NCBI GenBank assembly: GCA_030141605.1
Contig: JAQGDQ010000019.1
Location: 1,054,001-1,118,000 of the forward strand
Direction of reading: 5' to 3'
Length of the DNA: 64,000 nt
DNA from: Tubiluchus corallicola
Lineage: Eukaryota > Priapulida > Priapulimorpha > Priapulimorphida > Tubiluchidae
The notes beneath the pieces are model-generated. The model was not told the DNA's origin. It searched no databases and was given only the letters and a program-made list of their open reading frames with translations. Shown here piece after piece: positions 18,201-40,700 of the stretch. Position numbers and translations under genes: made by a program. The stretch's first letter is position 1, and every line of letters starts with the position of its first letter.

Positions 18201-19413
18201 GTTATACCTGGCTGAGATTTTGAGATCTAATTCACTCGTAGAGTTTGGGGTATGGCTAGGTCACTTAAATTTCCTAGAGATTTTCTAGCTCTTTTGCATG
18301 TCCTAGGCACTAATCCTACTCCTATCCCAGTAAACACAACTCTTACTTTTCAGTATTGTCACAATAAGTGTCATTGGCATACATTCCATTTAAAAGTTGT
18401 GTGCAAAAACTTTAATCAATTACTTTTAAAAATGACTGTGTAAAACAAATTTATTTTCTAGTAAACCACAGGAACTCTCACAACAAAGATTTGACAAAGC
18501 ACTTGAAGAATTCTATGCTGTATGTGATCAAATAGAATCAAACTTGGTAAGTTGCTTTTAGTGTTTGTCATTAGCAATAATCAACTTATTTTATTATCTT
18601 ATATAAAATAATGCTTAGGCTGCTTTTGTAAATGAGCTTAACCTGTTAAACTTCTCTTTATTTTCCTGCTTCTTTTTGTTGTTTAATTTTAACCATTTCT
18701 TGATGGTTAAATATTTCTACCGAATTCAGATTCAACTCTGAATCAAACTTGGTAAGTTGCTTTTAGTGTTTGTTATTAGCAATAATCAACTTATTTTATT
18801 ATCTTATATAAAATAATGCTTAGGCTGCTTTTGTAAATGAGCTTAACCTGTTAAGCTTCTCTTTATTTTCCTGCTTCTTTTTGTTGTTTAATTTTAACCA
18901 TTTCTTGATGGTTAAATATTTCTACCGAATTCAGATTCAACTCTGAATTTTATAGTTTACTATAATATGAGTTCTCTTTGCAAATACATAGATTAATATC
19001 CAAGTTACCAAATGAGAGCCTTTGGACAATAGATTTTACTAAGTTCTGATTGGATCACTGATGTCGCTGAGCAGTTGTTAACAATGAATTTTAGAGTTTA
19101 CTGGTATATGTTGCACACGTCAACATGTTATGTGGTTCAGTCAGTAAACTGAAAAAAGTCTGTACAAGCATAAACAGTTTTCCTTTTACAAGATAATGTA
19201 TTTTATTTTCAGCGTTTAGCAGCTGAATGTCAAAATCAAGTGATAGACAGTAATCGACATACATCACTTTTGGCAACCGCGGCAAAGACTGATCAGACTA
19301 GTCAGTATGTACAGTATCTGTCAACTGTCAGATCTCAGATCCATTATGCTAAAGAAGTGCATGATGTACTTCTTGAATGTGTGACACGAAGTAACACGAA
19401 AACTGAATCGTGA
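12218..19413 (+). CDS. MED29: Mediator complex subunit 29 (Intersex homologue), 4 exons
   Basis: MED29 is a tail-module subunit of Mediator, which links activators to RNA polymerase II in the nucleus. Exons are 12218-12421, 14866-14924, 18462-18546 and 19213-19413; phases 0, 2 and 0 match at the joins. The product is 182 residues; vertebrate MED29 is about 200. The N-terminus is Gln-rich (HLLQQQQIDH). DPIFRVKQNVKSLKDALS follows, then the short exon 2 (NVLLLASKFIYYNSVIDSG). Exon 3 has the family signature QRFDKALEEFYAVCDQIE. Exon 4 runs from RLAAECQNQ to SQIHYAKEVHDVLLECV. The ATG follows a stretch resembling a 3' splice site (ATTTTTATTTTAG), so a 5'UTR intron is possible. A likely poly(A) signal is AATAAA at 19715-19720. 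The exon 3 donor is duplicated downstream. Identity is firm; exon 2 rests on phase and weak similarity. Confidence 0.9.
12643..13096 (+). mobile_element. tRNA-derived SINE, copy 1
   Basis: The head reads CAGACGGTTTAGTCTAG then GCGTCCGCTTTCCGTC, close to the tRNA-like head of the copy at 46651. The 3' end, TTATCCAAAAGCCGACTTTA followed by AAATAAAG and (ATT)n, matches that copy as well. The middle (about 12760-13020) is not shared with it and may be a second insertion. It lies in MED29 intron 1. Confidence 0.65.
14701..14830 (-). mobile_element. tRNA-derived SINE, partial copy 2
   Basis: On the minus strand it reads AATGCGTCTGCTTTCC, then GTGAGTTCGATACTGCGG, an RNA polymerase III B-box. A body with CTGCTGTTGCCCTGCCTGG follows. 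The same order occurs at 46,680-46,790. The 3' tail is missing. It ends about 35 bp before MED29 exon 2. Confidence 0.6.
16303..16920. mobile_element. hAT-type MITE with perfect 8-bp target duplication
   Basis: The ends CAGTGGCGCAGCAA and, inverted, CAGAAGCATAGCAA form decayed terminal repeats of hAT type. ATCTTCTG flanks it exactly on both sides (16295-16302 and 16921-16928), the 8-bp duplication expected of hAT elements. It is 618 bp and has no complete transposase. It sits in MED29 intron 2. Confidence 0.75.
17745..17880. repeat. Low-complexity CA/ACC-rich tract
   Basis: About 135 bp dominated by ACCCACA, CAACAG and CAACAA units with almost no G on the plus strand. It lies in MED29 intron 2. 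The rest of that intron outside the hAT element shows nothing I recognise. Confidence 0.7.
18535..18949 (+). repeat. 205-bp tandem duplication spanning the MED29 exon 3 donor
   Basis: Two nearly identical copies (about 18535-18739 and 18740-18949) lie head to tail. Each begins GAATCAAACTTGGTAAGTTG, the last 12 bases of exon 3 plus its splice donor, and runs into intron 3. The copies differ at only a few positions, so the event is recent. The second copy carries an intact spare donor at 18752. Confidence 0.95.
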
Positions 19414-22027: not shown

Positions 22028-33734
<11,707 letters not shown>

Positions 33735-35828: not shown

Positions 35829-35883
35829 GGTAGTGTCAAGGACTACTATACAACTATAGTGTATAGTAGTCCTTGGGTAGTGT
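35829..35883. mobile_element. 39-bp palindromic insertion with 8-bp target duplication (copy A)
   Basis: The left arm CAAGGACTACTATAC (35837-35851) is exactly complementary to the right arm (35861-35875), around a 9-nt loop. GGTAGTGT abuts the palindrome on both sides (35829-35836 and 35876-35883). An 8-bp direct repeat immediately outside a perfect palindrome is what a transposon insertion leaves. The ends CAAGG fit the loose hAT terminal consensus (YARNG). No internal sequence is left beyond the arms and loop. Confidence 0.75.
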
Positions 35884-36399: not shown

Positions 36400-37525
36400 G
36401 TCATTGCAGTGCTTGAAGTGCCTCAACTTTTCCTACATTTACAGATGTTAAACTCTCAAAATCTGTGTCAGCATTTCCGAGCCTATGCAACAGATGGGCC
36501 AGAAAGATTTTCTTAGAATACATAATTGTGACCACTTCATAAATATATGAAATATACGAGCTGTTGCTGAATTTTTCAAGTTTAAACAACACTTTAAGAG
36601 TTTTCCAAGTCTACACTGCACCTGAACTGCTTTAGGAATTTTCCGAATCTATACTGGACGTGAACAGCCTTATAATTATTCCTAGTGTACACAATACCTG
36701 AACAGCCTCATAATTGTTCTGAACTTGCACAACACTTGACATTTAAGACTTTCAAAGTCTACATCTTGTGACTTAAATTGCTTTTAAATTTTGTTTGAAG
36801 TCTGTGTGATGCGAAATATTCACTGTAACGTAATGCCTGACTCCTGAAATGCTTCAGCATTTTCCAAATCTATTCTGTGCAATGCATTAACATTTTTTAA
36901 ATCTGCACAACACGTACAAATTGCTCAGTATTTGCAAGCTCAAGACTTGAGCTGAATGAATATAGTTAAAGTCCATACAGCATTCAAATTACTATTATTG
37001 AAGTCTACAAACATCTGAACTGCCTTTGCAGTTGCCATCTACATAATACATCAGCATGCCACAGCCTACATAACATTGAAGCTGCCTCAGCATCTTCCAA
37101 GCCAGACTGATTGGCCCTGATATCTAAGGCGGAGCTACCTTAGTATTTTCCAAGCCTGACATTTGAGTTGCCTCAGGGTTTTCCAAACTTGCTTGATGCG
37201 AGTTGCCTCGGCATTTTGCAAGCCTGCCTGACGTTAGCACTGCCTCGGCATTTTCTAAGCCTGACTGACACATGAGTTGCCTCAACATTTTCCGAGCCTG
37301 CCTGACACCTGAGTTGCCTCAACATTTTCCGAGCCTGCCTGACATCAGCGCTGCCTCAGCGTTTTCCAAGCCTGACTGACACTTGAGTTGCCTCAACACT
37401 TTCCGAGCCTGCCTGACATCTGAGTTGCCTCAGCATTTTCCGAGCCTGCCTGACATCAGAGCTGCCTCGCATTGTCTAAGCCTGCCTGACATCTGAGCTG
37501 TTTCTGCATTTTCCAAGCCTGCCAA
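36400..37525. repeat. Degenerate minisatellite, about 37-bp unit
   Basis: From about 37,080 to 37,525 the unit resembles GAGTTGCCTCAACATTTTCC plus GAGCCTGCCTGACATCT and recurs about every 37 bp. Upstream to about 36,400 the same phrases (TTTTCCAAGTCTACA, CTGAACTGC) recur with much greater decay. The array is more uniform towards its 3' end. It lies just before NDUFB2. Confidence 0.85.
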
Positions 37526-37749: not shown

Positions 37750-40700
37750 ATGTGGCGAGGTTTTACAACGTAAGTGTTATTACGAATCATTTACTACTGT
37801 TGAATTTTCTGCATTCTTTGCTCAGGTATTTATTTTCCCCTAGGTATGTGCTAGTTGTAAAATTTTATTTTGTGAAAGTAGTGTTAAGCTACTTTGTTAG
37901 AGTGATTATTGTCTTTGTAGGTGGAGCAAAATCTATCAAAGTTAAGTTCAATTAACATCTAAAGTAGGATTATTTGTTGATCATAGTTATCATTCCAAAA
38001 CTATCTAGGCTGACAAAAATTGATTGAATATTTGTTATACTTGCCTCCTATAGGTGGCGCACAAATAGAAAACTGTGAATGTTGGACGCCGAGTAATCCA
38101 CTACCCGAAGTAGGACAATTGGCGTACATGGGCTAGCCCAAGTATGACGCGTCGTACATGGGCTAGCCCAAGTAGGACACTAGAGACAGGTCGCGAATTG
38201 AGTCGTTAAGCGTACTGGCACCTTCCGTTGTCCTTGTTTATGCAATAATAATAATTAAACACATCAATACACGTTGAATAATTTATTATACATTTGATAA
38301 AATATACGAATTTTATTCTAAGTTCGTATAATTTTGCCAACATTAATCTTCTCTGAAGTGAAATAAGCGCACTTTTTAGGCGAAACCAACATTTGCTTAA
38401 GGTATATCATTTTTTATTTTGCCTTGCTTCACAGACAGGTGCTTCTTTTCACTCCCTCTTGGACAAATAATTATTTTCTACTAAGTAAACGGGTTAGTGA
38501 ATTATGTGCAAGTAACGAGCTACGTAGTTTCTCTCTTTAAAGCATTAGATATACTTAGTTTAATCTTATGATGATAATTATTAATCGTGCTAATAATAAT
38601 GATGACATTGTTGTAAAAAGTAGGTTGTCAAGGACTATCCATCTTTATTATAAAGTTAGTTTTTTTCTAAAACAAATTTAGTTTTATGTTTTATTATGTC
38701 ATAAATCTCGATTCTCGACAGAAATCGCTAGCGTCCTGCTTGGGCTGCCCATGTACGACACTCAAATTTAGCACATGCGTTTTACCGGAAATGTCCTACT
38801 TCGGCTAGTGGATTACTCGGCGCCCTACAGTGAAAATAGTAACGGTGATAAGTGATCGTAGATTTCTAGAGCTCTGTGCAGATTGACCTCAGTATAAACG
38901 TTGAAGTTTGTGGCTGTTTACCAGAATCATGACATAAATTTTAACATTGTTAAAGTTTTTTCGTTAATAAAGCGTGGTCAGTGACTTAGTGATGCTTCTT
39001 TCTAGGTGTAGAACAGTTATTTGCAGCATTGGAAGATGCACTAGATCACCTAGTCGGGCGTTTGCGACAACACCTGGCCGATATCACGTGTATGCAGCAC
39101 TATCTATGTTTAGCAAGGACATTATAAATATGTATTTATAATGTCCTTGATGTTTAGAGTAGTTGCCTGTATATGGGGCCTGTACTAGGTAGTTTAACTC
39201 TCTAAGAGAAGTCTTTTTAGCGCCTCCTCAACGGTCAACCCCTTTCCTCACAGTCCCCACTATACCCCAAATTTGATTTTTCTTGCATAATATTAATTAT
39301 AACAAAGTGTAACGGTACCTGTGTGTTAGCCTTATATATGTACCATAGTACACGTACTAATTAAATGTAGTTAATTTACTGTCGACAGCTTACGTTGATT
39401 GAATTTGAAATGGAATTTATGACTCCTTCGTACATCCTGGGTCTTCAGGGGCAATTAAATTTACCTCAATTTGTGCTACTCTTGACTAGATTTTCCTTCA
39501 GCTTTTTCATCAGAAATTTTTTTTTAAATCCTAGCTTCTGATTTTCACATGTACATCTGTAAAGTCACTAGCAGGAAACACTAGAGCTGCACAGGTTTAG
39601 CTAAAATAAACTATTTAATTGGAAACAGTAAAGAAGTTTCACAGCAACAGACTCGTCAGCTTAAGGTGGTAACGTTATAACTGACTACAACAGGGAAGTC
39701 AGATTAGGCGGAGGCTAATAGTAGATAGTAATGCATCCACTACTAGGATGTAACCAATGTGACAGAGAGGAATGTTGGTACAATTGAAGCCATAGTGCTG
39801 TTACACATCTATTTCGTGCACTTCATTATTTTCACAGCTATAGCAATGGACTGTTTATGAAGTTCTAAAGAAAACGTGCTACTAGAGGCAATGACAACGA
39901 TGAATTCCTATTTCTGAAATGTTTGCTTCCTAATATTAAAAAGATTCCAGAGTGGAGTTAGCTAATTTCCCAAGTAAAAATTCAGGAAGTGGTGGAACAA
40001 TTTGCTTATTCCAAAGGCACGTGCATGCTTAATATTACTATCCGACCATGCCCGACACAGTTCAGATCTTTCCCTTTACAACTACAGATGAGCCATTACT
40101 GCAGAAATCATTTTACTGGATGACAAATTACAGAGTAAACTCTACATCAGTTTCACTTAGCCCCTATAGTTGCTTTACTACATCCATATGATTTTTTATT
40201 AGTTGTTAATTACTGCAAGTAAAATAATACTTTTTTGTTATTTAATTTGTTAAAACCTGACACACCTTGAACAAAGATGGTTAAGATGTTCTAGTCTTTA
40301 GATAGCTATGTACTACTTCGCTAAGAACGTAATTAAATGCATTCTAGCTCCATCCTCACATAATGGAAGAATCTTCTCTTGTCCTGCTTTACCTGGAGAA
40401 ATAAGTGATTATACTCCCCATATTCACGTCTCTTGCAGTTAAATTTCATGTATCGCTAGTTCTTTTCTGTAATGTGTTGTCTAATAACAAATTATCTAAA
40501 AGAAAATTTTCTTCTTCAACACATATCATTTGTCATATGCAATGCAAAACAAAGGAATCAGCTTTCTGGTTCCCACGTCTGTTGCGTGCATCAACCAGCG
40601 TGAACCAGTGTTGATAATAAGTGCAATTTTATAAGTTTTCGTTGTGTTTGAACCCTAATGCAGTACTGTTAAGTCACAAACTGCAGATATTTGACATTTC

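Follow-up and report, generated by a model that had tools for sequence, protein, structure and literature searches.

We found that the two tiny palindromes, copies A and B, in the stretch of DNA analyzed here (64,000 nucleotides; the window) are very probably excision footprints of transposons of the P-element superfamily. Copy A has parental elements with P-type transposase domains in the same assembly, and the tips of those elements that remain in its genomic relatives share a common stopping point. Insertion would have duplicated 8 bp of the target. At excision, the transposase would have cut one strand at the end of the element and the other strand about 17 to 18 nt into the terminal inverted repeat, which would have left 17 to 18 nt of each terminal repeat at the donor site. 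End joining, either blunt or with a short AT-rich filler, would then have united the two tips as a near-perfect palindrome flanked by the duplications. On this model, the arms would be perfect because they are two tips of one inverted repeat that stop at a fixed place, and the centers would differ because each junction is repaired separately. The strand-specific, staggered internal cut and the repair pathway are what the footprints appear to imply.

The preliminary description of this DNA presented copy B as a 36-bp palindrome with a perfect 8-bp duplication, 16 bp from a splice donor. Our analysis confirmed these three details. Positions 39114-39149 read CAAGGACATTATAAATA-TG-TATTTATAATGTCCTTG, with perfect 17-bp arms and a TG center, and ATGTTTAG flanks them at 39106-39113 and 39150-39157. 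By eye, exon 2 of the host gene, which we take to be NDUFB2 from a peptide resemblance, ends at 39089; GTATGC follows from 39090, and the duplication starts 16 bp into the intron. From its CAAGGAC start, copy B can be read as 18+18 or as 17+2+17 nt, and together with both duplications it makes up 52 bp of the intron. The features are as follows (positions in the window).

35829 to 35836, no strand: left target-site duplication of copy A, GGTAGTGT, seen in the sequence
35837 to 35875, plus strand: copy A, putative P-element footprint of an 18-nt tip, TATA filler, and a 17-nt tip, set against parental ends
35876 to 35883, no strand: right target-site duplication of copy A, GGTAGTGT, seen in the sequence
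39006 to 39089, plus strand: exon 2 of the host gene, boundaries by eye from the printed reading frames
39106 to 39113, no strand: left copy of the 8-bp target-site duplication of copy B, ATGTTTAG, seen in the sequence
39114 to 39131, plus strand: left tip of copy B, 18 nt, CAAGGACATTATAAATAT (alternative: 17 nt plus filler T), seen in the sequence
39132 to 39149, minus strand: right tip of copy B, 18 nt, minus-strand reading CAAGGACATTATAAATAC, seen in the sequence
39150 to 39157, no strand: right copy of the 8-bp target-site duplication of copy B, ATGTTTAG, seen in the sequence

Copy A lies 3.3 kb from copy B. Both derive from insertions, as originally suggested, and both have genuine 8-bp duplications; the octamers differ (GGTAGTGT versus ATGTTTAG). 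Perfect arms of at least 7 nt together with a perfect 8-bp repeat (18-1200 bp) occur at four places in the window: copies A and B and two others, both of which fall within a 205-bp tandem duplication (18535-18948, 99% match). The window contains two palindromes with a center of at most 10 and arms of 14 or more; since 100 first-order Markov surrogates held only two between them, such palindromes rarely arise by chance. The computed RNA fold of copy B is a hairpin of -28.2 kcal/mol (z, -4.56), a stability expected of any such palindrome.

The window carries other repeats as well. Just downstream of copy B, positions 39176-39260 are a dispersed repeat that recurs at 21 further genomic sites with 76-85% identity. 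Intron 1 contains an element of about 740 bp (approximately 38083-38826) with long inverted ends (GCCGAGTAATCCACTA...), in which the palindrome GTACATGGGCTAGCCCAAGTA appears twice in near-identical form at 38120-38179; by eye, we found no clear target duplication for it. Upstream of the host gene there is a 37-bp tandem array of about 10 copies (GCCTGACATCTGAGCTGCC..., 37154-37523), and an (AG)96 run occupies 29359-29550.

Family-A parents and their probable scars

The 15-mer CAAGGACTACTATAC occurs 100+90 times in the genome versus 1/0 for its reversed control. Among the 100 places listed (up to contig C1677), at least eight form inverted pairs 3246-3347 bp long, and there are also deletion derivatives ranging in length from a few hundred base pairs to 2.9 kb. 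The parental ends read CAAGGACTACTATACAAC followed by AGGACGTGC, or a variant one base shorter, within a 66-bp inverted repeat; beyond the 15-mer the sequence continues as ATACAAC, ATACTAC, or ATACAC, each followed by AGGACGTGC, with a few other variants. This extended terminal motif was found 56+50 times versus 0/0 for the control. The full copy L084 is 3308 bp long with the 8-bp duplication GTATTAAC on each side, terminal inverted repeats that match at 62 of 66 bases, and the CA...TG ends of the P superfamily.

We found 26 matches to the TNP-like RNase-H domain (PF21787) in the genome, all 26 above the curated cut-off; for 21, the surrounding open frame is 300-881 amino acids long. The match in L084 scores 26.3 bits against a cut-off of 24.6; that in L065, where the domain runs off the end of the locus, scores 22.2 bits and is below it. 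Thirteen matches lie on contigs covered among the CAAGGACTACTATAC places listed, of which 10 are flanked on both sides by exact termini, 1 is flanked on one side, and 2 have none there; for one of these two, on C275, the extended-motif search gave a near-exact terminus. The THAP domain (PF05485) is present in one parent copy at 26.0 bits (cut-off, 23.9); in the frames of L084 it is slightly below the cut-off, a frame-broken copy scoring 23.2 bits. The C-terminal half of the transposase had no Pfam family above the cut-off (one unrelated match was subthreshold) and no match to any solved structure. By domain content, ends, and duplication, these parents of about 3.3 kb are members of the P-element superfamily. 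L091 (G000:C266:227600-232600) represents a separate lineage of P-type transposase that scores better, at 85.7 bits, and has one in-frame stop; on reading the locus, we recognized no termini for this lineage at C266:230213.

The genome-wide census used the pattern CAAGGACN{10,40}GTCCTTG over the 343.5-Mb assembly. CAAGGAC...GTCCTTG alone is not enriched genome-wide: it occurs at 41 places and its reversed control at 52, which speaks against a simple reading. The distinctive features are instead the specific arms together with the target duplications. Read by eye, the 41 places fall into 27 that resemble copy A, copy B itself, 4 with CAAGGACCTCTATA (family C), and 9 remaining ones. No target duplication was seen in the six of these nine that were examined (C1874, C1943, and C2303 were left out). 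The analysis of tips covered 26 of the 27 copy-A-type places, since L033, with an 11-nt arm, is outside its pattern; two are second assembly copies, which leaves 24 distinct loci. A decayed relative of copy A is found at L073.

The 8-bp duplication is perfect at 19 of the 24 loci, has one mismatch at 4, and is a shifted 7-bp repeat at 1 (L026); L037 and L038 lie within AT repeats, where the duplication says little. At the center of the palindromes are blunt joins, one-base overlaps, or fillers, mostly AT rich, of up to 18 nt. The 24 loci carry 21 distinct sequences, 19 of them unique.

The preliminary description took the palindromes for a tiny mobile hairpin family with about 7 conserved base pairs. 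The analysis does not support that reading: the family-A copies read as excision scars of P-type elements of about 3.3 kb and, by extension, so does copy B. A rival explanation is that ultra-short nonautonomous transposons, MITE-like and mobilized by P or hAT, move as palindromes of 35-62 bp. This would fit the good duplications, and it would fit the repeated sequences, one of 35 bp (a blunt join) at three loci and one of 36 bp at two, since the duplication is not the same at any two of these sites. It would also fit the decayed scar L097, described below. However, the sequences differ mainly at the center, the repeated ones are near-blunt tip joins that excision predicts to be common, and the tiny copies lack the inner AGGACGTG motif of the parents, because they stop short of it. 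MITEs would be many near-identical copies at different sites, and neither the single copy B nor the 21 sequences of family A have this form. We consider such transposons unlikely, although MITE-style movement may apply to copy B alone.

The search for the parent of copy B

The exact 17-nt tip of copy B is found nowhere else in the genome, and with up to two mismatches its occurrence is at the control level (132/119 versus 152/134 for the control). No parent was found among the 18 other places within one mismatch or by narrower searches. At L090, AGGCCGT follows 18 nt, but the surrounding 3.5 kb contain neither an inverted partner nor anything like a parent element, and L090 was rejected both as the parent of copy B and as a P element. 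At L087, a copy-B-like tip (one mismatch) is followed directly by ATGTTTAG, the octamer of the duplication of copy B, which is probably a coincidence. The genome may have lost this parent, or the parent may be polymorphic or missing from the assembly.

The locus L097 is 62 bp long, with CAAGGAAATTATAAATAT at its left and an inverted CAAGAACATTACAAATAA at its right. Against the tip of copy B it has 1/18 mismatches at the left and, at the right, 3/18, versus at least 7 for the other 17 near matches. The flanking octamers, AATGTATG and CGTGTATG, are alike at 6 of 8 positions, which composition alone yields in 0.7%. L097 is likely an older, decayed scar of the copy-B family. Directly after the 18-nt tip, it has AGGACGT, as do the family-A parents; these bases may have remained from the parent, or the tip may have served as template for filler. 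A pattern search built on this AGGACGT gave 1+1 occurrences versus 1+2 for the control. A weak second candidate relative is L086, a weak palindrome (7 of 300 shuffles were as good) with unmatched flanks.

Because copy B has the anatomy of family A and its parent was not found, we infer its footprint status from this anatomy, from L097, and from copy A 3.3 kb away, which together point to a related family not found intact. The decayed scar fits a tiny mobile unit too and so does not raise the odds for copy B. As the parent of copy B was not found, a hAT element or another transposon with 8-bp duplications could also be proposed. Duplications of 8 bp are common to hAT elements, but hAT footprints retain only a few bases, whereas copy B has CAAGGAC and the 18+18 layout of P footprints. 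We judge a parent of this kind to be slightly less probable still than ultra-short transposons. A hAT micro-MITE, considered from the 8-bp duplication and the CAAGG start, was dropped on the 17- to 18-nt tips and the P transposase.

Tip lengths and the position of the proposed cut

We measured 48 tips at the 24 distinct family-A loci against real parental ends. Thirty-two stop exactly at the boundary between AC and AGGAC, which corresponds to 18 nt for the longer parental end types and 17 nt for the shorter one. Eight tips are shorter by 1-6 nt and eight are longer by 1-3 nt (overall range, 12-20 nt), with an ambiguity of a base or two where filler mimics the parental end. The search admitted tips of up to about 40 nt, and deeply trimmed tips, as in Drosophila, are invisible to the pattern.

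Random internal deletions of long elements, by abortive gap repair or cruciform loss, could leave short tips by chance, and the derivatives from a few hundred base pairs to 2.9 kb show that shortened elements exist. However, uniform deletion endpoints within the searched size predict about 5% of tips at any one given offset, against the 32 of 48 seen, and 16% of copies with both tips of at most 20 nt, which we observed at 24 of 24 loci. No tip keeps more than 20 nt of the 66-bp end repeat, and fillers are present. Random deletion is improbable, slightly more so than a hAT parent. Hairpin-templated repair, which would keep arms complementary while the inner sequence drifts, is the least credible of the alternatives: copies A and B do have perfect arms that differ from each other, yet the family-A arms are the parents' own tips, and arms are mismatched or decayed in L105, L107, L110, L073, and L097. 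Perfect arms are therefore not universal. Of the two origins originally offered for different perfect arms, many related masters stood up for copy A and hairpin copying did not; the family-A sequences vary mainly at the center.

In two half-footprints, one tip ends as in the full scars and part of the other element end is retained: L079 (301-414), with a tip of 18 nt and about 96 nt of the other end, and L083 (301-536), with a tip of 17 nt and about 195 nt. Their form suggests one-sided gap repair. Among the loci compared, no site had an element in one copy and a footprint in another; there were only repeats of the same locus.

As first described, CAAGGAC is common to families with different inner arms. 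The sequence CAAGGACCTCTATAAC, which marks the P-like ends of family C, occurs 16+12 times versus 0/0 for the control, and we examined all 28 ends, 27 of them distinct (L123 repeats L119). Nine ends run into an inner motif (eight by script, L109 by eye), with junctions of CTAAAG or CTAAA followed by TGGACGTGACAC, or slight variations on these. Two tips lie close together at nine loci: L016, L021, L027, L105, L107, L110, L113 (by eye), L114, and L117. A 7-bp duplication is perfect at L021, L027, L107, and L114 and has one mismatch at L105, L110, L117, and L113 (by eye); the irregular locus L016 has none. Tips of about 21 nt are present on both sides at L021, L107, L110, L117, and nearly so at L113, some with mismatches; L027 (20 and about 15 nt), L105, and L114 fit this length less neatly. 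A 1279-bp family-C copy contains a short THAP-like stretch (ASSICSLHFVEDDF), recognized by eye. The family-C tip at L116 leads directly into a tandem array of CTATAA, perhaps filler expanded by slippage.

The best tips of families A and C alike stop a single base outside GGACGTG, at 17 or 18 nt in family A and about 20-21 nt in family C, an indication that this motif sets the position of the cut. The 17-nt tip of Drosophila P is followed by AGG. We offer only tentatively, and lean slightly against, the broader proposal that the P-type internal cut here is set by a ruler from the internal GGACGTG rather than from the element end, that copy B and L097 are fossil traces of a third family, one not found in intact form, and that footprints alone could reveal lost families and their cutting geometry.

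Comparison with known P elements

This one genome contains about 35 probable natural excision scars, most with a parent family in the same assembly. Because the parents are mostly present, the cut geometry can be read from such scars without an assay, as can repair style and target duplication, and these can be compared across the 8-bp and 7-bp families. Scars elsewhere in this genome suggest at what depth within its own ends a P-like element is cut. The long staggered cut of the P transposase, a GTP-dependent cleavage, is known mainly from Drosophila biochemistry. In the open-licence literature, as judged by titles and the openings of abstracts, we found no survey of natural P footprints across a whole genome. 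For other transposons, a study of excisions in rice is reportedly a parallel.

In all likelihood, copies A and B are a further instance of the P-type excision footprints already known. The P{wa} junctions from spn-A flies, as given in Table 1 of PMC2895639, are like the scars here, with the 8-bp duplication and about 16-17 nt of each terminal repeat. That source likewise lists junctions with microhomology, a blunt join, or AT-rich filler in an inverted arrangement, as here. By our own count of its Table 1, 30 of 66 isolates keep at least 15 nt on both sides, and in 20 of 66, joined at long microhomologies, the greater part of each tip is gone. A passage of PMC7776569 places the 5' cut of the P element 17 bp inside the terminal repeat. 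The P{wa} junctions, however, come from a different element and host and were recovered from a cross, whereas the scars here are in a reference assembly; the tips here are CAAGGAC... of 18 or 17 nt, and those of Drosophila P are CATGATG... of 17 nt.

Zebrafish Pdre2/THAP9 and Drosophila P resemble the family-A parents in their THAP domain, TNP-like RNase-H, length of about 3 kb, CA...TG ends, and 8-bp duplication. The end repeat differs, with 66 bp and GGACGTG inside it in family A versus 13 bp in Pdre2 and 31 bp in Drosophila P. The sister family C, unlike Pdre2/THAP9 and Drosophila P with their 8-bp duplications, has 7-bp duplications. Galileo and 1360, also of the P superfamily, make 7-bp duplications, as does family C; Galileo has long, repetitive ends.

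Annotators should be aware that a short perfect palindrome between duplications may represent a scar rather than a MITE or a hairpin RNA. MITEs are likewise short, palindromic, and flanked by duplications, but the scars here are not a repeated mobile unit, and their centers differ at nearly every locus.
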